Assembly: GCA_947561715.1 (NCBI GenBank)
Contig: OX387198.1
Span: 2,790,001 to 2,854,000, forward strand
Reading direction: 5' to 3'
Origin: Ascidia mentula
Taxonomy: Eukaryota > Chordata > Ascidiacea > Phlebobranchia > Ascidiidae
DNA length: 64,000 bases
This document shows, in pieces, positions 1-55,160 of this stretch (position 1 is the stretch's first letter; every line of letters starts with the position of its first letter). Under the pieces are notes generated by a model, which was given only the letters and a program-made list of their open reading frames with translations, ran no database searches and had not been told where the DNA came from. Position numbers and translations under genes: made by a program.

Positions 1-3000
1 TCAAGGATTATCCAATGTGAGGTCACAACAGTATGACTTGAATGCTGAAGAAATAGTGGAGCAACAGCCAGGTATTTTCAAAGATGTATACCCTTTGTAT
101 GTTTTGGGTTGGTTTTCTGAATGAAAGTTTAACACTTAACATCAAATACCTTACATTTTGATTTATGAAAGAATACCATTAAATTAGTTAAGGACCTATA
201 TGGGTATTAGATAGGAGAAATCCTGTGTTCAAGGCCCTCGGCTGTAATGCATCTAGCGACTGTTCCGCTTGTTTCCCAATGACCGTTGATGGGTCTTGTG
301 ACTTACATAGGGACCTGAAATTCTACAAAGTTGAAAAAAAAAATTGCTCCTGGATGAGACTGTATAGAGCAAGGACTTTTTGGGCCTCCTGGAAGATCAT
401 ATGACCAACAGGGGGGTATACTCAGCCCTTGGGGGAGGGCATTGACACATTTTCAGCAACTAAATTTGATTTTTCTGCAAAATCCAGTTCCATTTTTGGT
501 TGCTCTTTTAACCAAAATATTGAGTAACCAGGGGGGCAAATGGCCCTAGGGGGGTGGCTAAACCATTTTTTCGGAGACTAATTTTGATCAAAATTTGTAG
601 ATATGAAATGGATCTTTCATAAAATCACAAATGATTGGACACTTAAACGATTCATTTTGCCACAAACACAGCCTGATGTTTTTGCTCCATTTTCAACATA
701 AATTTCAGCAGCACCCACCAGCAAGTTACTACCTAATTGGAATAGCTCAAAACCACACTAAAACTGCCCCAAACACCTTAAAATTCGCCATGACAACACG
801 CACATGTGCGCTCATTCAACCGTAAATTTAACTTAATTGCGTCACTGCTTTGCTTGGTGATGCATGACTTTGCATTGTGACACAGGTCTACACGGTGGGC
901 ATTTCCCAGCACCAAAACTAATTTTCATAGAAATACCAATATGCGTCCTTAAGTTTTAAAGTAAAATATTGGTGCCATATTCCAGAAATCATACAAACCG
1001 GAAGGTCTCCAGAGAAAGTTCTCCAACCTTTGGCAGAAAATATACCAGCACAGCATGATAACAATGAATATATTGAGAGACAACTAGGTACTTAAAAATG
1101 CTGTTAAATTTGCTAATACAGGTTCCGAAACAGTGTATCAAAATGCACTAGTAGCAAACTGTATGACCTCTCAGCTGTTGCACTGCTGAAAAAATGAGTC
1201 ATTATATTACCAAGTGAATTAGTAACTAAAAAATATTCATCGCTATAAATAAAGGTATTACTATTACATTTTGTAACAAATAAAGGTATTCTCTTATGTT
1301 GAAGTTGGAAACCACATTGCCTAATGCAATATTACTCTTAAATAATTTCCCCCTCACAAACCCTCCTTACACATTCGCTCTGTTTACCATCATGGTAAAT
1401 TCTTTTTCATTGTCTATCTATGGACGAAAAGTATTTATTTAAAACACCTGGAACATTTGCCTTTTATCGAGACAAACCAGCTCTACAATTTGGCACCACC
1501 AAACAATCCATATAAAAATTCTCTCAAAAGCATATTTGTTAATTTTTATTTTTTGGCCTTCCAAAATGACAAAATTGAGTTTGTCTGTTACATGATGTTT
1601 GCAATAAAATAATAGTTGACTTTAGCAATCCATTCTCATTCAGCTTTGAAAAGAAAATCAAGCAATGACATTCCAAGCGCTTCCAGTGACAGCAAGAAAA
1701 TTAAAATAAATACAGAAGATGGAACATCACGAAAAGAACAAGCAGGTGAAAAAATAAAACTTACGACCTCCGTCATATATATTTTGATATTGTTAATGGA
1801 GGGCACCTGTTATGACATCACAAACTAGTGATTGTGATAAACATAATAAAAATAAATGTAAATTCATGTTATATCACTTCCAAGACACTGAACAGCATCC
1901 AACCACCTCTCATGATGAAACCCATGATCCTTTTTCAAGTGATGAACAAATAAATGCAGGAAAAGTTGTGCAGGGACGACAACAAACAGGTAACGCTATG
2001 TGTGTAACAATTTTTTACTGAAAACAATTTGAATAAACTTTATCTGTTGTTGGTATGCTACTGATAGTGGTAAACATTGCATTACAGTGAAGCAATTACT
2101 TTCGTAGGGTTTTAAGTTAAATTGATGTAAGACAAGACATTGGCAATCACTTTGTAAAGAAGCCTTTTTCCTTGCCAAGCTTTTTTCTTTTTATAGCCAA
2201 ATCTTTACAATTCAGCCACTCCAAAACCCCCAGGAACAGATTGCTAGCACCTCTATTTAAACCGCTATTTTTTAAAAGCTACTGGTGACGAAACCAGAAT
2301 AAATTGTTAAAATGTAGGAATACCATTTAACAAAAGGAGCTGTTGATGATACAGGAAATACAACTATTAAGAATTAAATACCATTGTATTTAAATATATC
2401 TGTTTAAACCAATAAGCAAGAAACAAAAATCTTTCCTAAAACTTTCGGGAAAAAATGAACATTTAGGACTTCCAAATATCACATATAGGTTTTTCAGCAC
2501 ATTTGTTGTTATATGACGTCACAAATAATAGCATTGACGTGTATATTCTGTGATTTTTCACTAAACCAAATCAAAATCCCTTTTCTGGTAAATTGTAAAA
2601 CATTAAAGTTAAAAATACCTGAAATATATTTATATGCCCCCTTTTTAAAAAATAAACGGTGAATGATCTCTAGCGCCACCAAAAAATTCCCCCGAAACAC
2701 TGACACTTTGAATAGACCGCCAGGGTATGTGATGGTGGGAGGTTGGATTTATTTGTGTTTAAATTAAATAAATTGTTTTTATTTCAGATGAAAACATCCA
2801 AACTTTTTGGATCCAAACTTACGTGAATTTGTTGGAAAAACATAAATATTTGGAAGCAAATGAAACAAGAAACCAACTTTTAAGGTCACTTGAAGGTTGT
2901 GGGAAAACTGCGGAAGATTTGGAAACAACTGGAGATATAAAGAGAAGAGAGGGAAAATGTTTGGAATCGATTTTATTTTTCGATGTTGCGTCTGAACTTT

Positions 3001-3547
3001 ATGTCAAACGTGGTGGATGGGAAGCGGGGAAAGGTGTGGGGATTGTGTTTGGGGTTTGAGTCTGACATGCGAAGATTTGATGAAAACATCGGATTTGAAT
3101 CAAAAACTTGAAAACAAACGAATAATTCGTGATCATGTGTTCCCACTCATGGAAACGATCAGACTCAAAGTGTATTATGTCAAAAACGTGGAAGAAGGAT
3201 TTAAATGCGACAATCAAGTGTGGTGTTTGCTCAGGATTGGGTTGAGTCAACGTTTAATCGGAGATTATTCGTCGAGTGAATCAACACTTAAACTTGGACT
3301 TGAAATGATGAGAAAACGGTTTGGTGAAAACTCAGCAAAGCATAAAGTGTTCGGAATTTTGTTAAACAACCTTGGTTTGGTTTGCATGAAAACAAATCGA
3401 CTGAATGAAAGTGTGGATTTTTATAAAAGAGCAATCCAAGCTTACAGAATGGCAACAGACATAACTGAAGAGGAAAGGGAGGAGTGGATTGAAATAAGTG
3501 AAAACAATTTAAGTGAAGTTGAATCAAAACTTGCACAAAGGAAATAA
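1..3547 (+). CDS. Gene A (partial): linker exons plus TPR last exon, frame-broken
   Basis: This is the 3' end of a gene whose start lies before the window. Exons I can place: 1-71, 986-1087, 1122-1160 (weak donor GTATGA), 1644-1745, 1885-1989 and the last exon 2788-3547. The internal exons are all phase 1 to phase 1 and match exons of gene D one for one, so the missing N-terminus was probably a kinase. The exon at 1885 resembles gene D exon 46267-46371, but what follows it resembles the intron in front of the TPR exon. The middle linker exons seen in the other genes are therefore missing, apparently by one internal deletion between two homologous exons. The last exon has lost one base near 3040 compared with the other three copies. 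Its frame stops at 3057, and the rest (3060-3547) is open only in another frame. It could make a shortened protein or be a pseudogene. Confidence 0.6.
192..948. mobile_element. Non-autonomous TTAA-target transposon (757 bp) in a gene A intron
   Basis: The element is flanked by TTAA at 188-191 and 949-952. Its ends are imperfect inverted repeats: GGACCTATATGGGTATT on the left, GGACGCATATTGGTATT as the reverse complement of the right end. The matching intron of gene D (around 45385-45388) is an empty site with a single TTAA, so both borders are known. There is no transposase frame inside. TTAA target duplication is typical of the piggyBac superfamily, but the termini alone do not prove that assignment. 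Confidence 0.8.
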
Positions 3548-6880: not shown

Positions 6881-6954
6881 AGCTCTCGGTGAGGTTTGAA
6901 CTCACGACCCTGGGCTAACCAGGCCCAACGCTCTACCAACTGAGCTCTCAGTGG
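6881..6954 (-). repeat. tRNA-like sequence, probably SINE head or tRNA pseudogene
   Basis: On the minus strand it has a good A box (GAGCTCAGTTGG), a D arm GCTC/GAGC, an anticodon-like stem TGGGC/GCCCA with loop CTGGTTA (anticodon would be GGT, Thr), and a T arm GTGAG-TTCAAAC-CTCAC with a B box. The 3' strand CGAGAGC has no matching 5' acceptor strand, and position 37 of the loop is T, so it cannot be a normal tRNA. Homologous copies are at 24297-24370 and 58143-58216. Confidence 0.65.
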
Positions 6955-16900: not shown

Positions 16901-19900
16901 GTTTAATGCAGGTTTTACTTCAGTGGGCGGAAATTTAAATCTCTTGACTGGAAACGATGCCTTTACTGCAAACAACTCAACACAGCAACCACAACTTATG
17001 CAATTTCTTCCATCAACAACAGGTATTTCAAAAAAATCTTGGAAATTTGGCTAGGTGGTAGAAGAAGAAATGAACAATTAAGGCCCAATTTTTGCCTTTT
17101 TTGCCATTCTAAGTTTTCGATATGCGAAGCCACTGTCGACACGCGTGGCGTGAAACAATGTTGAGTTACCGATATTCAGTAACATGAACAGACCAATGCC
17201 ATTGTCTTTAAAGACCATAAATTGAATTACTTTAATAACTCAATTATCGGTCATGCCAATCTTGCAGCATTCACATCGATCTTACTAGATTTGTTTTTTC
17301 AATGATTGGCATATAGATGCTGGTGGCAAAGTGGTTCAAAAAAATTGGTGCCAGTAGAAGTCATTTAATTGCAAACTGCAAATGATTATTTCGGGAGAAA
17401 TTTGTATTTTGAGTCACTATTAAACATCAGTATGTAACTGAATGGTTATATAGTGTTGAAAACTTAATGCGGTCATCGTTTGCTATGCTGGGATCCTCAT
17501 CCAAATTAATTTTGTCTCTTTAGATGGCTAAGTAAGTGCAACCGCAAATAAATTTTTGAACAAAATCCATGCAAACATCAGCCAACACTTGCTTTAACGT
17601 TCAGCGAATAAGCGCGTTATGTTTAAAACTAACCATTTACCAAACACATGGCATGGTTGCCAAACATGTTGCTTTGTTTCGAAACAAAGACCGTTTTTTT
17701 GTTCAATTGGACCTATTTAAAGAGACATCTCAGCCTACAACATGCAGGTTATTCGTTTGTTTTGTCGCTATTTCAATGTATTTTATGTATTTTTGTATTT
17801 TAAACTTATGTAAGTACAAGAATCCTATAATGGAAATAAGCCTGGTCGTTCTCATACGTTAGTTACCAGACGACATTTTGCTATTCAACACGCACAACAA
17901 TAAAGAAAATAATCTGCATTATTCAAAGCCTTAACTTTCAAGTTCCTTGTCGCCAATTTAAACCACATGCTAGATATGTATATTTTTTGCGAGCCTCGTC
18001 AGAGCACTTAATCTACAAGTTAATTTTTTGGTAAAGCTTAAATTATGTCATTGTACACATATTGGAAGTGTTATAAATTTCTGTTTTGTGTAGATTCTAC
18101 TTTCTGTAATGGTGGAAGTTCCTATAATACTGTCACCAGTGTCCCACCCAGAAATGGTTCTTTGATTACCGCTAACCCAACACAACAACATCGGAATACG
18201 GTGCAAACTTTACAAACAGGTATTAACTTGAAATTAATAAGCTTTAAGCCAAAAGTCACACAGAAATGCAAGGAAGAAATTTTCTCCAAAATGGTAAAAT
18301 ATGCAGTGAATTCATTGCAACTTTGTGACATGAAAAAATCTTTATGTTAATTCATGTGTGCAACACCTTTTTCTCATGTCTTTTTTTCGTGTCATGCAAT
18401 GAGGCCATCAGTCCATCCTAGCAAATTTGTTAATATCAAAAACTACGCGAAGAGTATTGACATAGAAAGATGTTTTTAGTCCCTGTTCACCATCTTTTTT
18501 TATTTTGATATGATGTAACATTTATTATGTTTCCGAATACAGAATTCAGTGCAAACCATGTTGAAATTGCCAATAACCCAACAAGCTTTGGTGAATACAA
18601 AACAAGCGGTGATATTTCTACGAGGCAGTCAGATGCTGCAATAGTATTGATGCAACTTTCAGGTACGTTTTCTTGTAAATTAGTAAATTGACAAAATTTA
18701 ACGTTGTTTTTTTTTTTTTTGCACATGAATCTTTATGTGACCCTACCTAGGCCTAATTCTTTTCATTTTTTTTGAAAATCTGTAAAGTCTTGTACCGTAT
18801 TTACTTGATTGTAAGCCACAGCTTGTAAAGTTTTTGAACCTACTGTTTCTGCGGTGTTCAATCGAGGGCAGCTTATATTCGTGGGTGGCTGTGGCTCTCA
18901 GTTTCAATGAAATTCATGTTTAACTTGCTCTGCCTTACCAGTACGTTTTATCAAACACAGTTATCAGCGTACCTGACAATTTCAATGGACAGATTTGTTG
19001 ACAATTATTGTTATAGGGCACCTAAGGTTCCCTATGACATTTACATGTGGCTTAAATTCGAAGGCGGCTTATATTAACTTTTGAACACCGTCACAATTGA
19101 ATAAATAAGGTTGTACATTCTCAAGTTTATTTGCACTATTTTTTTCACAAAATCACCAACTTGCTTAACACTAACATGACAAAAGTATGAAAATATATTT
19201 TTGTAAAACCTATTCAAGGTATTGAAGAGCCTGCAACTACTCCTTATAGCCCAAGGTTCACTGAACTATTAAATAGTCAACGAGTATATACTGGGAATAT
19301 TATCCAGGGAGCAATACAACAAACAGGTAATTTCATTGTTTATTACAAGCCCATTGATTTACATAACACATATGCAAAGTTATATTTTTTAAAATTACAA
19401 AACATCACCAAAGGTGTAGCTTAGATTTAGTTTTGTTTAATCACTTTCAAGGCACTGAACAGCATCCAATCACCTCTTATGATGTAACCCATGATCCTTT
19501 TTCAAGTGATGAACAGATAAATGCAGGAAAACTTGTGCAGGAACAGCAGCAAACAGGTAATAAACACAATTTGAAAAAAACTGTATCTGTTGTTGGTAAC
19601 CCCTAGGAACAGACTGCTAGCACCCCCTTTTTGAAAACTACTAGTATTGAAACATGAATAAACTTTTATGTAAGAGGAATGTAGGAATACCATTTAACAG
19701 AAATGCAAGCAATGCAAATGCTTCAAAGAGAGCTGTTGATTATACAGTAAATACAACATTTCATAATTAAATACCACTGTATTGGGAAAGTTCGGGAAAA
19801 ATGAACATTTAGGACTTTCAAATATCACATATATCGTGACAAAAACATACATGGTTTTACAGCACATTTGTTGTTTTATGACATCACAAATAACGGCATT

Positions 19901-20923
19901 GACGTGTATATTCTGTGATTTTATACTAAACATAATCAAAATCCCTTTTCTGATAAATTGTAAAACATTAAAAGTACGAAACCTTGAATTTCTTTTTCCA
20001 ATATGTCCCCTTTTTTAAAAAAATACACGTTTACCACTCTTTAGCGCCACCAAAAAAAATCCCCCGAAACACTGACACTTTGAATAGACCGCCAGGGTAT
20101 GTGATGGTGGGAGGTTGGGTTTATTTATGTTTAAATTAAATAAATTGTTTTTATTTCAGATGAAATCATCGATTCAACTTTTTTGATCCAAACTTACGTG
20201 AATTTGTTGGAAAAACATAAATATTTTAAAGCAAATGAAACAAGAAATCAACTTTCAAGGTCGCTTGAAGGTTGTGGGAAAACTGCGGAAGATTTGGAAA
20301 CAACTGGAGATAAAAAGAGAAGAGAGGGAAAAGATTTGGAATCGATTTTATTTTACGATGTTGCGTCTGAACTTTATGTCAAACGTGATGGAGATGAGGC
20401 GGTGAAAGGTGTGAGGGAATGTGTTTGGGATTTGTGTCTGACATGCAGAGATTTGATGGAAACATCGGATTCGAATCAAAAACTTGAAAACAAACGAATA
20501 ATTAGTGATCATGTGATCCCACTGATGGAAACGATGAGACTCAAAATACAAAATATTAAAAACGTGGAAGAAGATATCAGATGTGAGAAGCAAGTGTGGT
20601 GTTTGCACGCGATTGAATTGAGTCAACTTTCAATCGAAGATTATTTGTCGAGGGAATCAACAATTAAACTTGGACTTGAAATGATGAGGAAACAGTTTGG
20701 TGAAAACTCAGCAAAGCATAAAGTGTTCGGATATTTGTTAAACAACCTTGGTGTTGTTTACGAGGAAACAAATCGACTGAATGAAAGCGTGGATTTTTAT
20801 AAAAAAGCAATCCAAGCTTTCAGAACCGCAACAGACATAACTGAAGAGAGAAGGGAGGAGTGGATTGAAAAAAGTGAAAACAATTTAAGTGAAGTTGAAT
20901 CAAAACTTGCACAAAGGAAATAA
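13958..20923 (+). CDS. Gene B: MADF-BESS protein with modular linker and C-terminal TPR domain
   Basis: Thirteen exons join in frame: 13958-14093, 14175-14331, 14391-14437, 14591-14697, 14762-14954, 15716-15799, 16496-16615, 16912-17022, 18094-18219, 18543-18662, 19219-19326, 19452-19556, 20160-20923; 725 codons plus stop. Residues 1-97 are a MADF (Myb/SANT-like) DNA-binding domain: V-R-R-E-P-C-L-Y-D, then W-L-R-I-S, then C-K-E-R-W-K-S-L-R-D-R-F and W-K-Y-Y. C-K-K-R-K-L near 138-143 is a likely nuclear signal. Residues 175-203 (F-G-N-F-V-A-D-T-L-Q-S-M) look like a BESS-type interaction motif. Residues 214-471 are Asn/Gln/Ser/Thr-rich linker from seven phase-1 symmetrical exons. The last exon encodes helical repeats, the best with L-G-V-V-Y and F-Y-K-K-A-I, like TPR. 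The ATG is the first in the MADF frame. A DNA-binding regulator with a protein-binding tail is likely. Confidence 0.75.
15086..15245. mobile_element. Truncated hAT-type MITE in gene B intron 5
   Basis: It begins TAGTGTTTCCCAACCGG and matches the reverse complement of the MITE at 12071-12306. The other end is lost, where another repeat (up to about 15650, ending ACATCACCAGTG) takes over. Same place in gene C: 32451 to about 32610; fuller copy in gene D at 46621-46827. Confidence 0.6.
18795..19110. mobile_element. MITE with CCGTATTTA / TAAATAAGG ends, 316 bp
   Basis: The element lies in the intron between exons 10 and 11 of gene B. Left end CCGTATTTACTTGATTG, reverse complement of the right end CCTTATTTATTCAATTG, flanked on both sides by TTGTA (18790-18794 and 19111-19115). 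It holds no coding frame. Copies are at 53184-53459 (gene D) and, internally deleted, 36094-36323 (gene C). All sit in the same intron, so there was one insertion before the genes were duplicated. Confidence 0.6.
20160..20923 (+). other. TPR module (last exon) of gene B
   Basis: Single exon, 254 codons, from D-E-I-I-D-S-T to A-Q-R-K. Three TPR-like hairpins are visible: L-E-T-T-G-D-K-K-R-R-E-G-K with F-Y-D-V-A; L-H-A-I-E-L-S-Q-L-S-I-E-D-Y; and L-L-N-N-L-G-V-V-Y-E-E-T-N with F-Y-K-K-A-I. Compared with genes C and D, most base differences in the first helices change the amino acid (see findings). Frame is intact. Confidence 0.75.
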
Positions 20924-34300: not shown

Positions 34301-37300
34301 GTGGGCGGAAATTTAAATCTCTTGACTGGAAACGATGCCTTTACTGCAAACAACTTAACACAGCAACCACAACTTATGCAATTTCTTCCATCAACAACAG
34401 GTATTTTAAAAAATCTTGGAAATTTGGCTTGGTGGTAGAAGAAGAAATGAACAATTAAGGCTCAATTTTTGCCTTTTTCGCCATTCTAAGTTTTCGACAC
34501 AGGCGGCGGGAAACAATGTTGGGTTACCGATATTCAGTAACATGAACAGACCAATGCCATTGTCTTTAAGACCATAAATTGAATTACTTCAATAACTCAA
34601 TTATCAGTCATGCCAATCTTGCAGCATTCACATCGATCTTACTAGTTTTCTTTTTTCATTGGTGCCAGTAGAAGTCATTTAATTGCAAACTGCAAATAAT
34701 TATTTGGGGAGAAATTTGTATTTTGAGTAACTATTAAACAACAGTATTTAACTGAATAGTTATATAGTGTTGAAAACTTAATGCAGTCATCGTTTGCTAT
34801 GCTGGGATCCTCATCCAAATTAATTTTGTCTCTTTAGATGGCTAAGTAAGTGCAACCGCAAATAAATTTTTGAACAAAATCCATGTAAACATCAGCCAAC
34901 CCTTGCTTTAACGTTCAGCGAATAAGCGCGTTATGTTTAAAACTAACCATTTACCAAACACGTGGCATGGTTGCCAAACATGTTGCTTTGTTTCGAAACA
35001 AAGACCGTTTTTTGTTCAATTGGGCCTATTTAATGAGACATATCAGCCTACAACATGCAGGTTATTCTTTTGTTTTGTTGCTATTTCAACATGTATTTTA
35101 AACTTATGTAAGTACAAGAATCCTATAATGGAAATAAGCCTGGTCGTTCTCACGGCCTGAACAGTAAAGAAAAAAATCTGCATTATTCAAAGCCTTAACT
35201 TTCAAGTTCCTTATTGCCAATTTAAACCACATGCTAGATATGTATATTTTTGTGAGCCTCATCAGAGCACTTAATCTACAAGTTAATTTTTGGCAAAAGC
35301 TTAAATTATAGAAACTACTTCTATCCACATGTCATTGTATAATATTTGAAGAGTTATAAATTTCTTTTTTGTGTAGATTCTACTTTCTGTAATGGTGGAA
35401 GTTCCTATAATACTGTCACCAGTGTCCCACCCAGAAATGGTTCTTTGATTACCGCTATCCCAACACAACAACATCGGAATACTGTGCAACATCGGAATAC
35501 TGTGCAAACTTTACAAACAGGTATTAACTTGAAATTATTAAGCTTAAAGCCAAAAGTCACACAGAAATGCAAGGAAGAAATTTTCTCCAAAATGGTATAA
35601 AAATATGCAGGGAATTCATTGCAACTTTGTGACACGAAAAAAATGTTAATTCATTTGTGCAACACCTTTTTCTCATGTCTCTTTTTTCGTGTCATGCAAT
35701 GAGGCCATCAGTCCATCCTAGCAAATTTGATAATATCAAAAACTATGCGAAGAGTATTGACATAGAAAGATGTTTTTATTCCCTGTTCACCATCTTTTTT
35801 GTATTGATATGATGTAACATTTATATTGTTTCCAAATACAGAATTCAGTGCAAACCATGTTGAAATTGCCAATAACCCAACAAGCTTTAGTGAATACAAA
35901 ACAAGCAGTGATATTTCTACGAAGCAGTCGGATGCTGCAATGGTGTTGATGCAACTTTCCGGTAAGTTTTCTTGCAAATGTGACAAAATTTAACGTTCTT
36001 TTGTTTCTTTGTTTTTTTTGCACATGAATCTTTATGTGACCCTACCTAGGCCTAAATCTTTTCATTTTTTTTGAAAATCTGTAAAGTCTAGTACCGTATT
36101 TACTTGATTGTAAGCTACAACTTGTAAAGTTTTTTAACCTACTGTTTCTGCGGCGTTCAATCGAGGGCAGCTTATATTCGAGGGTGGAGGTGGCTCTGAG
36201 TTTCAATGAAATTCATGTTTAACTTGCTCTGCTTTACCAGTATGTTTTATCAAACACAGTTATCAGTGTACCTGACAATTTCAATATTAACTTTTTAACA
36301 CCGTCACAATCCAATAAATAAGGTTGTACATTTTCAAGTTTAGGGTGTAGCTTAGATTTAATTTTGTTTAATCACTTTCAAGGCACTGAGCAGCATCCAA
36401 CCACCCCTTATGATGTAACCCATAATCAGTTTTCAAGTGATGAACAGATAAATGCAGGGAAAGTTATGCAGGAACAGCAGCAAACAGGTAATAAAAACAA
36501 TTTGAAAAAACTGTATCTGTTGTTGGTAACCCCTAGGAACAGATTGCTAGCACCCCTTTTTTAAAACTACTAGTATTGAAACATGAATAAGTTGTTATGT
36601 GAGAGAAATGTAGGAATACCATTCAACAGAAATGCAAGCAATGTAAAATGCTTCAAAGAAAGCTGTTGATTATACAGTGGATACAACATTTTATAATTAA
36701 ATACCACTGTATCGGGAAAGTTCGGGAAAAATGAACATTTAGGACTTTCAAATATCACATATATCGTGACAAAAACATACATAGGTTTTACAGCACATTT
36801 GTTGTTTTATGACATCACAAATAACGGCATTGACGTGTATATTCTGTGATTTTTTACTAAACCAAATCAAATAAATTGTAAAACATTAAAAGTACGAAAT
36901 CTTAAATTTATTTTTCCAATATGTCCCCTTTTTTAAAAAAATACACGTTTACCACTCTTTAGCGCCACCCAAAAAATTCCCCCGAAACACTGACACTTTG
37001 AATAGACCGCCAGGGTATGTGATGGCGGGAGGTTGGATTTATTTATGTTTAAATTAAATAAATTGTTTTTATTTCAGATGAAAACATCGATTCAACTTTT
37101 TTGATCCAAACTTACGTGAATTTGTTGGAAAAACATAAATATTTTGAAGCAAATGAAACAAGAAACCAACTTTCAAGGTCGCTTGAAGGTCATGGGGAAA
37201 CTGCAGAAGATTTGAAAACAACTGGACATGAAAAGAGATGGGTGGGAAAATATTTGGAATCGATTTTATTTCACGATGTTGCGTCTGAACTTTATGTCAA

Positions 37301-37841
37301 ACGTGATGGATGGGAAGCGGTGAAAGGTGTGGAGGAATGTGTTGAGGGTTTGAGATGGACATGCAGAGATTTGATGAAAACATCGGATTCGAATCAAAAA
37401 CTTGAAAACAAACGAATAATTAGTGGTCATGTGATCCCACTGATGGAAACGATGAGACTCAAAATACAAAATATTCAAAACGTGGAAGAAGATATCAGAT
37501 GTGAGAAGCAAGTGTGGTGTTTGTTTGGGATTGGGTCGAGTCAACGTTCAATTGGAGATTATTCGTCGAGGGAATCAACAATTAAACTTGGACTTGAAAT
37601 GATGAGGAAACAGTTTGGTGAAAACTCAGCAAAGCATTATGTGTTCGGAAGTTTGTTACACAACCTTGGTTTTGTTTGCATGGAAACAAATCGACTGAAT
37701 GAAAGTGTGGATTTTTATAAAAAAGCAATCCAAGCTTTCAGAATGGCAACATACATAAGTGAAGATATAAGGGAGGTGTGGATTAAAATAAGTGAAAACA
37801 ATTTAAGTGAAGTTGAATCAAAACTTGCACAAAGGAAATAA
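31324..37841 (+). CDS. Gene C: second MADF-BESS-linker-TPR gene, one frame break in exon 5
   Basis: Twelve exons match gene B: 31324-31459, 31541-31697, 31757-31803, 31957-32063, 32128-32319, 33081-33164, 33861-33980, 34290-34400, 35377-35520, 35842-35961, 36383-36487, 37078-37841. The counterpart of gene B exon 19219-19326 is missing through an intron-to-intron deletion that keeps the frame. Exon 9 is 18 nt longer (in-frame direct repeat, 35472-35507). Exon 5 has lost one T, giving TAA at 32254-32256. As read, the protein stops inside the BESS-like motif after about 191 residues. The MADF domain is intact. The downstream exons, including the 254-codon TPR exon, are open with good splice sites, so the break may be recent, allelic or a sequence error. 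Confidence 0.65.
35472..35507 (+). repeat. 18-bp in-frame direct repeat in a linker exon
   Basis: CATCGGAATACTGTGCAA occurs twice in a row in gene C exon 35377-35520, adding six codons. Genes B and D have it once. Confidence 0.9.
36094..36323. mobile_element. Internally deleted copy of the CCGTATTTA MITE in gene C
   Basis: Counterpart of 18795-19110 with an internal loss. Directly after it the intron and the next exon of gene B are missing in gene C. Confidence 0.55.
37078..37841 (+). other. TPR module (last exon) of gene C
   Basis: 254 codons, frame intact. Differs from gene B at variable helix positions: L-F-G-I-G-S-S-Q-R-S-I-G-D-Y for L-H-A-I-E-L-S-Q-L-S-I-E-D-Y, and S-L-L-H-N-L-G-F-V-C-M-E for Y-L-L-N-N-L-G-V-V-Y-E-E. 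The flanking intron is nearly unchanged. Confidence 0.75.
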
Positions 37842-43329: not shown

Positions 43330-44467
43330 TTTCATTTCATCAAAGCCGAGGATATTTTATGTGACCAATGGAATTTTGTTGCTGGAAGTGGTGGATTCAG
43401 TGATGTAATAATTGGTTACCATGTTGGTTGGAAGCAATTTGTTGCCGTCAAAGTAATCAAAGCTGGTGGCCGACACAGTGAAGAACTCTTTAAAAAAACG
43501 TAAATCCAGCATTCATGATACACTACTGTAACTGTTTTTATTTAAATAACTTTAATGTTGTAGAATTGGTGAAGAGCTGGAAAACCTGCAAAAACTAGAT
43601 CATATCAACATAGTGAGTGTTTATGGTTGGACTAAATGGCCCTTTGCCATTGGGATTGTCATGGAGTTCTGTGAAGGGGGAAACCTATTGGAACTGCTGC
43701 TGAATACCTCGATCATTTTGGGATTCCCTTTGCGTGTCCGGTTTTTACTGGATGCTGCAGAAGGTCTCAAAGCTTGCCATGGTTTACCTCTGAAGAGAAT
43801 GGTTCATGGAGATGTCAAGCCGGAAAATTGGTTGCTTACCAAAATTCTGCGCCTTAAATTGTGCGACTTTGGAAATGCAGAACTCGCAACTTTAACTGGA
43901 TTGACAACAAAGGATCCTTCAGCAAGAAGCAAGAAGGAAAGACCTCAATACACACCGATGTACACGGCACCTGAAAAACTAAAAGATCCCACCATGAAAC
44001 CCACCAAAGAACTTGATGTTTATGCTTTCGGTGTGATGGTCTTTACTCTCGTGGTGAGGGCATTGCCATATCCGACCGACAACCTGAAAGCTTTACAGGA
44101 CTCCATCAAGGAAGGAAGAAGACCAGATTGTTCCATGATAAACCAAATAAAGTCTCTTCTCAGTTACAGTGACAGAGCAATCGTTGAAAACCTGGAGCAA
44201 CTGATGAAGCTGTGTTGGGATCAAGATCCATCTGTTCGACCAAACATGATCGAAATCTGTGAGAGATTGCAGCAACTTCTTGACCAGCAAAGTCCAGAAG
44301 TTATCAAGCAACAATTGGAAGATGTTGTCAGGCAGATGGACATGAAAGATCCCTTTCTTGTCAACAATGCGACGCTGGTTTCCCTTCAATCATTTTGCAC
44401 AAATACCCGAAGATTCCAAGGTTTGTTCTCAAATTTATACAAACTAGCAAAAATTTCCGATCATTAA
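43330..44467 (+). CDS. RIPK-like serine/threonine kinase module of gene D
   Basis: Two exons (43330-43499 and 43564-44420) encode a full kinase domain. Glycine loop G-S-G-G-F-S-D-V; a tryptophan before V-A-V-K as in RIP kinases (catalytic Lys at 43450-43452); helix C Glu in G-E-E-L-E-N-L; gatekeeper region V-M-E-F-C-E-G-G-N-L; catalytic loop V-H-G-D-V-K-P-E-N; D-F-G at 43865-43873; A-P-E at 43967-43975; a C-lobe ending C-W-D-Q-D-P-S-V-R-P. All catalytic residues are present, so it should be active. The HGD in place of HRD is seen in IRAK/RIP relatives. The second exon ends in phase 1 at CCAAG|GTTTGT; unspliced it would stop at 44465-44467, with a poly(A) signal AATAAA at 44737. A short kinase-only form is therefore possible. 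Entry into the first exon is in phase 0. Confidence 0.85.
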
Positions 44468-47400
44468 CTGTGACTGTAGAAAAATTGACCCAAATTAGCT
44501 TGCTTGTCTCTGTTGTGATATACGATCCTTCTGCCAAGTACACAATCCTCCAACCTATAATGATGCCAGAAAAGATCATTCATAGCACCAGCAATTACTA
44601 AACCTTTAACAAGTTTTTCTTCAATGCATAAAAATGTGTGAATGAGAGTATATTCAACTAATACTTCTTAGAAATGATATGTAGTGTATTATGTTGTTTG
44701 TAGCAATCATGTATAAATAGAATTCATTGTAGACATAATAAATATAGCACTGTGGTAAATACAGATGCCATAGCTCAGAGCTCGGCAACCTTTTGAATGC
44801 TACGGTCAGTTTACAATTTATGTTTAAACTTTGATGACTTCATGTGCCAACCTATATGTGTACACAAAAGTATGTTGGCCTTTTTTTAACCATTTTCTGC
44901 ATAGTGACTGATCATATGGGAATATATGAAGAACTTGTAAAGCACTTTGCACTTAAAAGAAAACTAAATCCTTTAAACATTATTTAGTTCGTTCTTCTGC
45001 ACTTGGGGATGTCACCCGAACTCATTCTTCCACTGATTCAACTGAAGACCAAGTGGTTTCTGGACGAGCAGGTAGTGTTGGAAGCTGATGTATGCAGAGA
45101 TTATGTCTTTATATAATGCAAACATAAAATACTGATCACTTTAGTTAAAAACCCATCTTCACTTTAAAGTGCTGATCCCAAAATTTTTTAAAGCAGGTCA
45201 AGGATTATCCAATGTGAGGTCACAACAGCATGACTTGAATGCTGAAGAAATAGTGGAGCAACAGCCAGGTATTTTCAAAGATGTATACCCTTTGTATGTT
45301 TTGGGTTGGTTTTCTGAATGAAAGTTTAACACTTAACATCAAATACCTTACATTTTGACTTATGAAAGAATACCATCAAATTAGTTAAGTTTTAAAGTAA
45401 AATATTGTTGCCATATTCCAGAAATCATACAAACCGGAAGATCTCCAGAGAAAGTTCTCCAACCTTTGGCAGAAAATATACCAGCACAGCATGATAACAA
45501 TGAATATATTGAGAAACAACTAGGTACTTAAAAATGCTGTTAAATTTGCTAATACAGGTTCCAAAACAGTGTGTCAAAATGCACTAGTAGCAAACTGTAT
45601 GACCTCTCAGCTGTTGCAGTGCTGAAAAAACGAGTCATTATATTACCAAGTGAATTAGTAACTAAAAAATATTCATCGCTGTAAATAAAGGTATTACTAT
45701 TACATTTTGCAACAAATAAAGGTATTCTCTTATGTTGAAGTTGGAAGCCACATTGCCTAATGCAAAATTACTCTTAAATAATTTCCCCCTCACAAACCCT
45801 CCTTACACATTCGCTCTGTTTACCATCATGGTAAATTCTTTTTCATTGTCTATCTATGGATGAAAAGTATTTATTTAAAACACCTGGAACATTTGCCTTT
45901 TATTGAGACAAACCAGCTCTACAATTTGGCACTACCAAACAATCCATATAAAAATTCTCTCAAAAGCATTTTTATTAATATTTATTTTTTGGCCTTTCAA
46001 AATGACAAAATTGAGTTTATCTGTTATATGATGTTTGCAATAAAATAATAGTTGACTTTAGCAATCCATTCTCATTCAGCTTTGAAAAGAAAATCAAGCA
46101 ATGACATTCCAAGCGCTTCCAGTGACAGCAAGAAAATTAAACTTACGACCTCCGTCATATATATTTTGATATTGTTAATGGAGGGCACTTGTTATGACGT
46201 CACAAACTAGTGATTGTGGTAAACATAATAAAAATAAATGTAAATTCATGTTATATCACTTCCAAGACACTGAACAGCATCCAACCACCTCTCATGATGA
46301 AACCCATGATCATTTTTCAAGTTATGAACAGATAAATGCAGGAAAAGTTGTGCAGGGACGACAACAAACAGGTAACGCTATGTGTGTAAAAGGTTTTTTA
46401 CTGAAAACAATTTGAATAAACTGTATCTGCTGTTGGTATGCTACTGATAGTGGTAAACATTGCATTACAGTGAAGCAATTACTTTCCTAAGGTTTTAAGT
46501 TAAATTTATGTAAGACAATACATTGGCAATCACTTTTGAAAGAAGCCTTTTTCCTTGCCAAGCCTTAAAAGCTACATAATACACTTTTTGGTACAATGTT
46601 ATTAACAGCTTCAGTTAGTTTAGTGTTTCCCAACCGGTAATACCACTAGTGGTACGCAAAAGCATTCCAGGTCGTACGCAAGTGCCTTTCCGTAATTTGC
46701 GGATATAGTTCAAATTAAAAAAATTGCAAGTGATCTAAAAATGTTTGTTGCTTCATCCCCTAGGATACTTTGTAAATTTGTTTTACCTCCAAGTGGTATG
46801 CAACCACAAAAATGTTGGGAATCACAGGTTTATGGTGCAGAGTAGTGATGTGGAGCTTCGGTTTGCAGAATTTATTTGGCCAAATCTGCGATTTTGATGA
46901 AGATTCAGTTTTGGCCGACTTATACGCTCATGAAAACGTTATGAGATACCAACAATAGCATGTGAACTGTATTAATAATTTCCAATACTTTGAAAGATGA
47001 TAATATTTTGGGCGCACATCTTATCTTTTCTGCGTAGTTGTGCATCACACAAATTTACGAACTGGTCTAAAACTAATGCAGAATCAACAACTCCTTTGTA
47101 TTGTTCAGTGACATGACAATAAAACTGTTACAGCGGCGGATTGCTATTGTGATACAAGTCTTAGCATGTACGCTCGCTAACAACATAACCTTTAAAAAAT
47201 GGGAGCGATGGTGTTCAATGAAATACTATCGTTGTGCCCATGCCTGGTACAGAATCGTTAATACAACTTGAAAACTACCGCAAAAACTGAATATTTGGTT
47301 TCAACCAAAACCGAATTTGGACGATTCCATGCATCACTAGTGTAGAATGTCAGATTATGGAAATTTTTAAAATTGTTATGTGTTTATTTTATTTAAGGAA

Positions 47401-50400
47401 ACACATCATCTGCTGAGGTTAACACGGATGGTGCAAAAGAAGAACATGCAGCCACCAGACACAATCAGCAACATTATGAAGGTACAAACAACATAAACAC
47501 ATATTTTCGTGACTAGTGTATAAAGATACTGATATCAAGTTGTAAAAATACTGTGCAACCCACAATAGCTTCAACATCCACCTAAGACAACACAGAAATC
47601 ATGTATATATACTTTAATTGTGGTAAGGTAGAATTGCTTGCGGCAAAGACTTCTGTTTGGCGATGTAAAAAATAAGCATGTTTAGTGTGAACTAAACAAG
47701 TGTTTTTGATGATGGCAAATAAATGTGGTCGCCTGGCAATTTGTTTGTATTAATGTAACTTGCCGAGGATCTTAAGTTCACACTTCACTGAGATCTATAA
47801 TTGTATTTCTTATTTAGACTTTTACAAAGCTTAGTTTTAGAATTTATATACAATGTATATATGTATATTATACATTGATTGATAGGGCCCAGAAAATAAT
47901 TTGCTTTGCCCCCAAAAATGGACACTGTATCGGTTTTTCCCATTATATTTTTTTGATCTTGTAATGTTTTGATCTTGTAATTGCTTGAATAATGGTGAAA
48001 GCCTTCAACGTCCTTGGAATAGGAATGGTCATGTTTTGCATGTCACTACAGCACAGCAATGTGCACAAACTATAACGCAGAAGCAACAAACAGGTATTTT
48101 TAAAGCTGAAAATACTATTGTGAAGTTGGCACACTGTTAAATTGTGTAAGTCTGTCCATTTAGCTGGAAACTGTGGGTAGTAGTTCAGTGTGGATGAGGC
48201 CTGTCGATCAAAAACTGTCACTTTCTGCAACTCAATTATCATAAGTGGTTGCATTACTTTTGTGCCTTACAATACGAGTTTTATTAAAATAGTAGTTATG
48301 CAAGTGTATTTCTTATCATAATCAATATAATAATTGTTGTTTAGTGTTAGTTTGCCTCTTAATATTTCTTTGTTGTATACTTTTGCCTCTAAATATTTGC
48401 TTCTCAAATGTAGACTCTGCTTTGAACACTGGTGAACCTGAAAGTTACCACAATCCTGTCAGCAATACTACAGAAAACTTCATGCCAGCAAATCAATCTT
48501 CAGTTAATGCTAATGATTTACCACCACAAACAGGTATTTCACATTGCTGCATTTCTATATGTACAGAAAGGACATTTTGTATCATAAGCCAAATTGAACA
48601 ACGTTAAACCTTACAGTTGGTTAACATTAAAATTCATGCCGGCATAAACAAGACATGCAAACCGGCTCATTTCGATCTGTGTTTGTTTTTTGTTCTTTTG
48701 TGTTCACACACACAGATAATATTCCAAAAAAGGAAATTAGCTTTTAGGTTTGTCTGCAAATACAGCTATGTAATTTTTCTAAAGTGTAAGATCCATGTCG
48801 ATGTTAAATTTGAGTTGTTTTTTTATTGATGTTTAATGCAGGTTTTACTTCAGTGGGCGGAAATTTAAATCTCTTGACTGGAAATAATGCCTTTACTGCA
48901 AACAACTCAACACAGCAACCTGAATTTGTGCAATTTCTTCCATCAACAACAGGTATTTCTTGGAATCTTGGAAATTTGGCCAGGTGGTAGAAGAAGAAAT
49001 AATCAATTAAGGCTCAATTTTTGCCTTTTTCGCCATTCTAAGTTTTCGATATGCAAAGCCACTGTTCGACACGGGCTACATGAAACAATGTTGAGTTACC
49101 GATATTCAGTAACATGAACAGACCAATGCCATTGTCTTTAAAGACCATAAATTGAATTACTTCAATAACTCCATTATCGGTCATGCCAATCTTGCAGCAT
49201 TCACATCAATCTTACTAGTTTTCTTTTTTCAATGATTGGCATATAGATGCTGGTGGAAAAGTGGTTCAAAAAAATTGGTGCCAGTAGAAGTCATTTAATT
49301 GCAAACTGCAAATAATTATTTGGGGAGAAATTTGTATTTTTAGTCACTATTAAACAACAGCATTTACCTGAATGGTTACGTAGTGTTGAAAACTTAATGG
49401 CAACATTGTTTGCTATGCTGGGATCCTCATCCAAATTAATTTTGTCTCTTTAGATGGCTAAATAAATTCAACCGCAATAAATTCTTGAACAAAATCCATG
49501 CAAACACCAGCCAGCACTTGCTTTACGTTCAGTGAATAAGCGCGTTATGTTTAAAACTAACCATTTACCAAACACATGGCATGGTTGCCAAACATGTTGC
49601 TTTGTTTCGAAACAAGTACTGTTTTTTGTTCAATTGGACCTATTTAATGAGACATATCAGCTACAACATGCAGGTTATTCTTTTGTTTTGTTGCTATTTC
49701 AACATGTATTTTAAACTTTAATATGAACAGAATAGTATTGATAATGGTTGTAGAAACAATCGAAACGTTTACATGAAGTTTTCGAGCACTGTATTGGCTA
49801 TTCTGTTCATATTAAAGATCTACAAAACCGTTAGTTATGTTCCTAAATATTCTAAACTTATGTAAGTACAAGAATCCTATAATGGAAATAAGCCTGGTTG
49901 TTCTCATACGTTAGTTACCACATACAACATTTTTACTATTCAAGACGCAGAAAAATTTTTCTTGAGATGTTTGACACGCATTAAAAATTACGCCCTGAAC
50001 AATAAAGAAATTAATCTGCATTATTCAAAGCCTTAACTTTCAAGTTCCTTATCGCCAATTTTAACCACATGCTAGATATGGATATTTTTTGCGAGCCTCA
50101 TCAGAGCACTTAATCTACAAAGTTAATTTTTGGTAAAGCTTAAATTATAGAAACTGCTTCTATCCACATGTCATTGTATACATATTTGAAGAGTTATAAA
50201 TTTCTTTTTTCTGTAGATTCTACTTTTTGTAATGGTGGAAGTTCCTATAATACTGTCACCAGTGTCCCACCCGGAAATGGTTCTTTGATTACCGCTAACC
50301 CAACACAGGAACATCGGAATACTATGCCAACTTTACAAACAGGTATTAACTTGAAATTAATAAGCTTTAAGCAAAAGTCACACAGAAATGCAAGGAAGAG

Positions 50401-53400: not shown

Positions 53401-55160
53401 TTAAATTCGAAGGCGGCTTATATTAACTTTTTAACACCGTCACAATTGAATAAATAAGGTTGTACATTCTCAAGTTCATTTGGACTAGTTTTTTCAAAAA
53501 TCACCAACTTGCTTAACACTAACATGACAAAAGTATGAAAATATATTTTTGTAAAACCTATTCAAGGTATTGAAGAGCCTGCAACTACTCCCTATAGCCC
53601 AAGGTTCACTGAACTATTAAATAGTCAACAAGTATATACTGGGAATATTATCCAGGGAGCAATACAACAAACAGGTAATTTCATTGTTTATTACAAGCCC
53701 ATTGATTTACATAACACATATGCAAAGTTATATTTTTTAAAATTACAAAACATCACCAAGGGTGTAGCTTAGATTTATTTTTGTTTAATCACTTTCAAGG
53801 CACTGAACAGCATCCAACCACCCCTTATGATGTAACCCATGATCCTTTTTCAAGTGATGAACAGATAAATGCAGGAAAAGTTATGCAGGGACGACAGCAG
53901 CAAACAGGTAATAAAAACAATTTGAAAAAACTATCTGTTGTTGGTAATCCCTAGGAACAAACTGCTATCACCCCTTTTTTGAAAACTACTAGTATTGAAA
54001 CATGAATAAGTTGTTATGCAAGAGGAATGTAGGAACACCATTTAACAGAAATGCAAGCAATGTAAAATGCTTCGAAGAAAGCTGTTGATTATACAGTGGA
54101 TACAACATTTCGTTTTATGACTGCAAATAACGGCATTGACGTGTATATTCTGTGATTTTTTACTAAACATCATCAAAATCCCTTTTCTGATAAATTGTAA
54201 AACATTAAAAGTACGAAATCTTAAATTTATTTTTCCAATTTGTCCCCTTTTTAAAAAAAATACACGTTTACCACTCTTTAGCGCCACCAAAAAAATTCCC
54301 CCGAAACACTGACACTTTGAATAGACCGCCAGGGTATGTGATGGTGGGAGGTTGGGTTTATTTATGTTTAAATTAAATAAATTGTTTTTATTTCAGACAA
54401 AAACATCGATACAACTTTTTGGATCCAAACTTACGTGAATTTGTTGAAAAAACATGAATATTTTGAAGCAAATGAAACAAGAAACCAACTTTCAAGGTCC
54501 CTTGAAGGTCGTGGGAAAACTGCGGAAGATTTGAGAACAACTGGACGTGAAAAGAGAAGAGAGGGAAAATATTTGGAATCGATTTTATTTTACGATGTTG
54601 CGTCTGAACTTTATGTCAAACGTGATGGAGATGAAGCGGTGGAAGGTGTGAAGGGATGTGTTTGGGGTTTGAGTTGGACATGCAGAGATTTGATGAAAAC
54701 ATCGGATTCGAATCAAAAACTTGAAAACAAACGAATAATTCGTGATCATGTGATCCCACTCATGGAAACGATGAGACTCAAAATACAAAATATGAAAAAC
54801 GTGGAAGAAGATATCAGATGTGAGAAGCAAGTGTGGTGTTTGCACGCGATTGAATGGAGTCAACTTTCAATCGAAGATTATTTGTCGAGGGAATCAACAA
54901 TTAAACTTGGACTTGAAATGATGAGGGAACAGTTTGGTGAAAACTCAGCAAAGCATGCAGTGTTCGGAATTTTGTTAAACGACCTTGGTTTGGTTTGCAA
55001 GAAAACAAATCGACTGAATGAAAGCGTGGATTTTTATAAAAAAGCAATCCAAGCTTTCAGAACGGCAACATGCATACCTGAAGAGAAAAGAAAGGAGTGG
55101 ATTGAAAATAGTAAAAACAATTTAAGTGTTGTTGAATCAAAACTTGCACAAAAGAAATAA
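43330..55160 (+). CDS. Gene D: RIPK-like kinase, long modular linker, C-terminal TPR domain
   Basis: After the kinase exons the phase-1 chain goes on: 44988-45071, 45197-45268, 45422-45523, 45558-45596 (weak donor), 46267-46371, 47398-47481, 48052-48093, 48414-48533, 48842-48952, 50217-50342, 50660-50779, 51085-51195, 52461-52586, 52913-53032, 53567-53674, 53800-53907, 54397-55160. Joined, they stay open over 1,122 codons from 43330. The exon expected at 46080 has lost its 3' end and donor and is probably skipped. Exons 48414-50342 are repeated as 50660-52586. The linker is rich in Asn, Gln, Ser and Thr and probably unstructured. The TPR exon is intact. Role inferred: a cytosolic signalling kinase whose TPR tail binds a partner or ligand. 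The kinase and linker could be two genes, but the phase match argues for one. Confidence 0.65.
44468..44987. other. Intron or 3' flank of the kinase module
   Basis: Holds AATAAA at 44737-44742. From about 44775 the phrase CAGAGCTCGGCAACC resembles a hAT-type terminal repeat, but I could not find its partner end. Confidence 0.35.
46080..46139 (+). pseudogene. Linker exon of gene D with lost 3' end
   Basis: Begins like gene A exon 1644-1745 (L-K-R-K-S-S-N-D-I-P-S-A-S-S-D-S-K-K-I) but about 50 bases containing the rest of the exon and its donor are missing, between two AAAATTAAA/AAAATAAA-like stretches. Skipping it keeps the reading frame. Confidence 0.6.
46621..46827. mobile_element. hAT-type MITE, full-length copy in gene D intron
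   Basis: Starts TAGTGTTTCCCAACCGG, ends TTGGGAATCACAG. Reverse orientation to 12071-12306. A second repeat with TAGTGATG / CATCACTA ends follows from about 46848 to 47342 and recurs at 60105-60514. Confidence 0.65.
48382..52870 (+). repeat. 2.24-kb tandem duplication of three linker exons in gene D
   Basis: Copy one runs from about 48382 to 50625, copy two from about 50628 to 52870, offset about 2,244 bp. They are nearly identical, introns included. Each holds three phase-1 exons (120, 111 and 126 nt), so the protein gains 119 residues without a frame change. The junction near 50626 joins intron sequence that normally precedes exon 52913 to intron sequence that precedes exon 48414. Confidence 0.9.
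49718..49859. mobile_element. Small hairpin insertion in a gene D intron
   Basis: An 18-bp inverted repeat (TTAATATGAACAGAATAG) closes 49718-49815. The whole insert is flanked by TATTTTAAACTT and TATTCTAAACTT, which occur once in genes B and C. The same insert is at 51962-52103 in the second tandem copy, so it came in before that duplication. Confidence 0.65.
53184..53459. mobile_element. CCGTATTTA MITE copy in gene D
   Basis: Counterpart of 18795-19110 in the same intron, with the same TTGTA flanks (53179-53183 and 53460-53464). Confidence 0.6.
54397..55160 (+). other. TPR module (last exon) of gene D
   Basis: 254 codons, frame intact. The middle helix (L-H-A-I-E-W-S-Q-L-S-I-E-D-Y-L-S) is almost that of gene B, whereas other parts are private (A-V-F-G-I-L-L-N-D-L-G-L-V-C-K-K). 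The mix of shared and private blocks points to exchange between copies. Confidence 0.75.

Follow-up and report, generated by a model that had tools for sequence, protein, structure and literature searches.

Four related units lie about 17 kb apart in the window (the whole 64-kb stretch of ascidian DNA analysed here), each ending in a terminal exon of 760 to 764 bases with an identical acceptor sequence in front, and the question is what drives the amino acid differences among the TPR-like protein ends that these exons encode. The sequence-only reading of this DNA had identified four homologous last exons, which we call A to D (Table 1), and had proposed that they differ mainly at ligand-binding positions, as expected if selection favored new binding specificities of the kind found in recognition receptors. 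We find the four exons where they had been placed, joined by a common acceptor sequence, and our analysis of the larger array to which they belong supports the interpretation that selection has acted on binding specificity. That array was needed, and the finding is stronger than four genes could show.

The four exons and the wider family

The residues read from the last TPR helix are as had been reported. With motif position 1 set at residue 190 of exon B (Pfam TPR_1 positions 3 to 29 align to residues 192 to 218), they are, in the order B/C/D/A, Y/S/I/I at position 2, N/H/N/N at 5, N/N/D/N at 6, V/F/L/L at 9, Y/C/C/C at 11, E/M/K/M at 12, and E/E/K/K at 13. The claim that this helix holds no silent difference among B, C, and D also stands: across codons 190 to 202 the B-C, B-D, and C-D comparisons have 7, 7.5, and 6 replacements and 0, 0.5, and 0 silent differences, the value of 0.5 being a product of averaging over mutational paths. 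Other parts of the earlier description need revision. The four paralogs had been treated alike, yet exon A carries a frameshift and is therefore not an intact fourth paralog. The flanking introns had been called almost unchanged, which is true of B and C (3.3% divergence over the last 320 bp) but not of the other five pairs, whose introns differ by 10 to 21%, compared with 7 to 11% for the exon. The proposed excess of replacements is clear in 22 copies of the array but not in B, C, and D by themselves, where ω is 1.69 and not significantly different from 1 (2ΔlnL = 3.2, p = 0.07), so that four genes alone are insufficient as proof.

Table 1. Positions of exons and predicted helices in the window
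Feature	Position	Strand	Remarks
TPR exon A	2788..3547	+	1-nt frameshift inside; broken or mis-assembled; excluded from every codon model
TPR exon B	20160..20923	+	terminal coding exon, phase-1 acceptor, 253 full codons plus stop; intact
TPR exon C	37078..37841	+	intact
TPR exon D	54397..55160	+	intact; upstream kinase exon, no TPR exon in between
Kinase N-lobe exon	43346..43499	+	GSGGFSDV loop, VAVK lysine; start approximate, by eye
Main kinase exon	43564..44420	+	HGDVKPEN, DFG, and APE motifs; RIPK1-like; phase-1 donor; borders by eye, frame checked
Candidate linker exon past kinase exon	44988..45071	+	phase 1-1
Candidate linker exon, unit B	19219..19326	+	phase 1-1; IEEPATTPYSP...IQQT
Candidate linker exon, unit B	19452..19556	+	phase 1-1; TEQHPITSYDV...QQQT
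Candidate linker exon, unit C	36383..36487	+	phase 1-1; TEQHPTTPYDV...QQQT
First predicted A helix	20393..20464	+	B codons 78-101; selected 85, 86, 89, 92, 93, 96
Second predicted A helix and loop after it	20570..20632	+	B codons 137-157; selected 143, 149, 150, 153, 156, 157
Third predicted A helix	20720..20767	+	B codons 187-202; selected 187, 191, 194, 198, 200, 201
Predicted capping helix	20843..20917	+	B codons 228-252; selected 230, 233, 234, 237, 244

The genome's single COX1 match (contig C79), read with the ascidian mitochondrial code, aligns glycines encoded by AGA and AGG with glycines conserved in mammalian COX1 and has TGA as a tryptophan codon, which identifies the host as an ascidian tunicate. 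Exon B as query against this genome (195.8-Mb assembly) gave at least 150 scored matches from 290 candidates, and 19 more places, counted by hand, emerged with a distant member as query; the family thus occupies 169 or more places spread over several contigs, a lower bound in which fragments and broken copies are counted. Among the matches listed, 27 TPR places, 22 of them intact, belong to the window's array (C2:2.27-3.05 Mb); the others are exon A, one copy with a single TAA (L024), and three partial places, two of them with a stop. We fetched TPR exons from 90 of the 150 listed places and modelled 85 of these 90 in four sets: 22 copies from the window's array (G1), 26 from C2:0.19-1.40 Mb (G2), 10 from C69 (G3), and 27 from C2:2.23-2.73 Mb (G4). 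The rows left out were A and L024 in G1, L037 in G2, L064 and L065 in G3, and L071, which lies outside every group. Tandem duplication is also visible on a smaller scale upstream of exon D, where 48382-50625 and 50628-52869 form a 2.2-kb duplication with 97.6% identity; a matching stretch is present as a single copy upstream of B and as a single copy upstream of C.

The window holds a single kinase exon (43564-44420) with an N-lobe exon before it, and a further kinase match lies just before the window. This exon matches Pkinase with an E value of 1.9e-32, and its best PDB chains are those of RIPK1 (E = 6e-25). Among the matches listed, a kinase exon directly precedes all 17 TPR exons at C2:0.98-1.41 Mb, and in the C69 array a TPR exon directly follows all 23 kinase exons, with a kinase directly before 23 of the 29 TPR exons. 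In the window's array, again among the matches listed, 8 of 27 TPR exons have a kinase exon directly upstream and 19 do not; a preceding kinase was sought at 73 TPR places in total and found at 48, counts that refer to 130 scored kinases of 364 candidates at E 1e-30 and that further kinases could alter. Stops occur in 4 of the 8 kinase matches that directly precede TPR exons in the window's array, and 7 of the 17 at C2:0.98-1.41 Mb are stop-bearing or in pieces. Because the kinase is sparse or stop-bearing in the former and interrupted or fragmented in the latter, many copies may be nonfunctional as kinase-TPR genes. Splicing phase is compatible all the same: two kinase donors (that of the window and that of L099), the four linker exons checked, and the array's TPR acceptors are all in phase 1 (the acceptor listing covered one phase only, so that its phase is no independent finding; the acceptor sequence is conserved within the window's array). 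Exon linkage in the arrays together with this phase compatibility makes it likely that kinase and TPR form one protein, the TPR exon probably being the last exon of RIPK1-like kinase genes.

A profile scan of the terminal exon recovered no death-fold family and only weak TPR matches. No NACHT or NB-ARC domain was found in the four exons scanned or in 10 of the 52 open frames on the plus strand between B and C, and these 10 frames likewise contained no other N-terminal domain for the kinase-less units. Related kinase exons with 37 to 46% identity form additional clusters at C1:2.0-3.0 Mb, C70:6.77-6.93 Mb, and C52:0.65-0.70 Mb.

Selection on the TPR exon

Codon models were fitted with our own likelihood program (F3x4 frequencies, FastTree topology, NEB posteriors), with branch lengths fitted under M0 and afterwards scaled only. 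Pairwise comparison of the 22 intact exons from the window's array gives a mean dN of 0.111 and a mean dS of 0.068, with dN the larger in 228 of 231 pairs. M0 gives an ω of 2.02 for the whole exon, with a lnL 23.5 higher than that for ω = 1; M2a places 15% of codons at ω of ∼8 (2ΔlnL = 499 over M1a), and M8 gains 511 over M7 and 468 over M8a. Sites with a posterior above 0.95 number 34 of 253 in M8 and 31 in M2a, and 101 of the 253 columns are invariant in residue. The dN/dS comparison with further paralogs that had been suggested as a check therefore finds replacement and silent rates to be unequal. A tree artefact arising through recombination was also considered and rejected, since fits to the three thirds of the exon, each with its own tree, kept the signal (2ΔlnL = 134, 171, and 118).

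Exon dS is near the local noncoding level, as mean divergence over the 22 copies is 9.4% in the last 300 bp of the adjacent intron and 6.4% in the 300 bp downstream. Whole-exon dN exceeds the distance in the longer introns, which align poorly, in only 116 of 231 pairs, and pN is 0.387 at the 34 selected sites versus 0.057 at the remaining 219 (where pN/pS is still 1.16), indicating that the excess lies in a minority of codons. At the 34 selected sites the replacement rate is well above that of noncoding DNA.

The other sets show the same signature to varying degrees, with an ω of 1.41 and a 2ΔlnL of 505 in G2, 1.20 and 112 in G3, and 0.58 and 32 in G4, where the signal is weak and limited to 3 sites. 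Selected sites recur between sets: G1 shares 20 with G2 (of 33 and 25 in common columns; p = 2e-16), 9 with G3 (of 34 and 14; p = 9e-6), and 2 with G4 (of 34 and 3; p = 0.05). As a control, the kinase exons of two of the arrays gave an ω of 0.40 (8 copies) and 0.39 (10 copies), with no significant gain under M2a (p = 0.38 and 0.09, respectively); one kinase site nevertheless passed a posterior of 0.95. Kinase exons unused in this control were 4 of 12 in the window's array, which bear stops, and 8 of 18 at C2:0.98-1.41 Mb, which bear stops or are fragments.

Replacements would also accumulate if constraint had been relaxed and surplus copies, many lacking a kinase, were drifting to pseudogenes. 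The window's array does include broken copies (A, L024, and three partial places of 27), and for 19 of its 27 copies no kinase exon stands directly upstream among the matches listed. Drift, however, should bring ω near 1 and not 2, and the 14 intact kinase-less copies of this array give an ω of 2.16 (2ΔlnL = 279) on their own, indicating that selection acts on these cassettes in the same way; the 7 kinase-preceded copies give 1.86 (2ΔlnL = 141), and L026, the first of the array, was placed in neither class for ω and tallied as kinase-less in the linkage counts. TPR exons without a kinase are intact at 15 of 19 places in the window's array versus 1 of 6 in the C69 array (p = 0.012), and invariance at 101 of 253 columns likewise speaks against decay. 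With ω well above 1 in kinase-less copies, we rejected relaxed constraint, which we regard as highly improbable.

A further alternative invokes mutation or gene conversion targeted to certain codons, with no selection on binding. Silent variation is approximately doubled at the selected codons (5.3% versus 2.7% of same-residue pairs), third-base heterozygosity is 0.18 there and 0.04 elsewhere, and incompatible site pairs within 60 bp are slightly fewer than in shuffles (0.57 versus 0.61, p = 0.012), a sign of recombination. A local contribution of mutation or conversion is therefore possible, given that silent variation is also raised at these codons. A process blind to codons should nevertheless affect the third base about as much as the others, whereas heterozygosity is 0.40 at base 1, 0.43 at base 2, and 0.18 at base 3, and no third-base variation occurs at 13 of the 34 selected sites. 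Many of the sites, moreover, recur on one helix face in sets that are 39 to 75% identical to B, and conversion moves variants without itself favoring replacements. We do not see how mutation or conversion alone would yield the replacement excess, and we judge this explanation improbable.

Selection acting on kinase-less copies bears on what these cassettes are: they may be free TPR proteins, or they may be alternative ends of an upstream kinase gene. Under the second possibility, which we consider rather unlikely, a single kinase exon set in the window's array would be shared by several TPR cassettes downstream, each used as an alternative terminal exon. The phase-1 compatibility of the kinase donors, linker exons, and TPR acceptors would permit this, and several kinase exons are indeed followed by intact kinase-less cassettes on which the same selection acts; among these are B and C, which come after the kinase match just before the window. 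If the arrangement were real, a RIPK-type kinase would possess a set of variable sensor ends, comparable to protocadherin.

Placement of selected sites on the predicted fold

Profile matches to exon B cover one repeat at about residues 192 to 220, with TPR_10, TPR_1, TPR_8, TPR_2, and TPR_12 at E values of 4e-5 to 1.2e-3 and TPR_7 at 0.05, all falling short of the curated cut-offs. An AlphaFold2 model built from three sequences (B, C, and D) is all-helical with a mean pLDDT of 71.8, better from about residue 71 and unreliable for residues 18 to 61, and its predicted helix pairs begin at residue 78. The predicted model resembles the TPRs of NASP and kinesin light chain (KLC), and also 14-3-3, in Foldseek searches, all weakly (best E = 1.8e-3).

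Selected sites in G1 fall in 16 of 58 residues of the predicted A helices versus 3 of 72 in the B helices (p = 0.0002), and the figures for G2 are nearly the same (15 of 58 versus 3 of 72, p = 0.0004); G3 and G4 show a nonsignificant trend in the same direction (p = 0.09 each). On the A helices and the capping helix (Table 1) these sites share a single face, which points roughly away from the conserved hydrophobic one. In joint permutations of this face test, 0 of 20,000 were as extreme in G1 and in G2, with p = 0.03 in G3; the helix at 137 to 154 taken alone in G1 gave p = 0.11. The variable sites are thus not scattered, as they would be had the proposed focus on ligand contacts been wrong: few fall in the B helices, and on the predicted A helices and the capping helix they favor a single face.

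Contact positions in HOP-type TPRs are 2, 5, 6, 9, 12, and 13, and the variable positions of TPRs are 2, 5, 9, 12, 13, 33, and 34, according to the available part of one account (PMC1261162). In the repeat whose register is sure, positions 2, 5, 9, 11, 12, 25, and 31 are selected in G1 (the first five being residues 191, 194, 198, 200, and 201 of B), so that 4 of the 6 contact positions and 3 of the 28 others are selected (p = 0.0096), in agreement with the sequence-only reading. The HOP-type pattern describes variation across unrelated TPR proteins, whereas the ascidian variation arises within recent gene arrays. Judging from helix order and motif register, the selected face of the predicted helices would be the concave one.

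A putative recognition family and its known relatives

We consider it probable that these exons belong to an intracellular kinase-TPR recognition family in which a groove binds a fast-changing partner, a kinase arm signals, and selection has diversified the groove. The TPR exons would encode the C-terminal TPR-like solenoid of RIPK1-like kinase-TPR proteins, presumably cytoplasmic, that form a large family in this ascidian. The groove would bind a pathogen product or a polymorphic self/non-self marker, and binding would regulate the kinase arm and through it a cell-death or inflammatory response. Tandem duplication would supply copies, and diversifying selection on groove residues would give them differing specificities while the kinase is conserved. 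A role as recognition receptors is a good inference, and the linkage to a RIPK1-like kinase exon fits it. Our confidence in this explanation is slightly lowered because several linked kinase matches carry stops and because B, C, and D alone do not reach significance.

The same selection signature would be expected if the groove diversified through intraspecific recognition, such as gamete or colony compatibility, or through intragenomic conflict and not through pathogen defense, and in the ascidian Botryllus a locus for self-recognition is highly polymorphic, as described in the accessible text of one study (PMC12065747). The fuhc proteins of that system are of other kinds, however, and the main text of the study, in the part available, does not mention "TPR" (PMC12065747). 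The occurrence of the ascidian family at 169 or more places on several contigs also seems to resemble a defense repertoire more than a single compatibility locus, and we regard intraspecific recognition or conflict as unlikely.

Among known systems, the nearest case to the putative kinase-TPR recognition family appears to be the positive selection on concave-face TPR positions in fungal NLRs, which carry TPR or ANK repeats and are discussed in connection with non-self recognition in Podospora (PMC4986451, in the portion available). The fungal proteins have an NB-ARC or NACHT domain, and their repeats are highly conserved and vary in number within one gene, whereas the ascidian family has a RIPK1-like kinase as its linked arm and is diverse between tandem genes. 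Tunicates have no RIPK1 homolog of the standard RHIM and death-domain make-up, according to the available part of one source (PMC12119088). Amphioxus has RIP kinases with LRR, death, and other domains, and the accessible main text of that study mentions neither TPR nor Ciona (PMC9573974). The likeness of the ascidian family to vertebrate RIPK1/RIPK3 lies in the kinase domain, for which RIPK1 chains are best among solved structures; RIPK1 carries a RHIM and a death domain, and the ascidian C-terminal exon is TPR-like instead. In plants, the brassinosteroid-signaling kinases (RLCK XII) have a kinase followed by a C-terminal TPR. Members of that family act in immunity, as far as the partial descriptions at hand go, and we liken the kinase-TPR layout by description only. 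We know of no account of these plant kinases as a hypervariable family.

To our knowledge, tunicates have no antibody-type immunity, and the putative kinase-TPR family may bear on how they recognize a broad range of microbes. Tunicates are the closest relatives of vertebrates, as stated in the accessible part of one source (PMC5882950). A family this large, with a conserved RIP-type kinase and a hypervariable helical groove, would give a chordate a candidate repertoire for intracellular recognition, and our analysis pinpoints individual residues for testing. We found no report of a tunicate kinase-TPR family in the open-access literature, a scope that leaves most subscription papers outside, and a 2026 review of animal immune diversification makes no mention, in its available part, of tunicate, ascidian, Ciona, TPR, or kinase (PMC13428168).

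Two further features of the window were observed. A candidate phase-1 exon at 1644-1745 reads LKRKSSNDIPSASSDSKKIKINTEDGTSRKEQA, which is basic and resembles a nuclear signal, and a shorter stretch near 46085-46140 resembles this exon. Matches to tRNA models with equal scores are present on the minus strand at 6889-6946 and 58151-58208, perhaps belonging to a tRNA-derived repeat.
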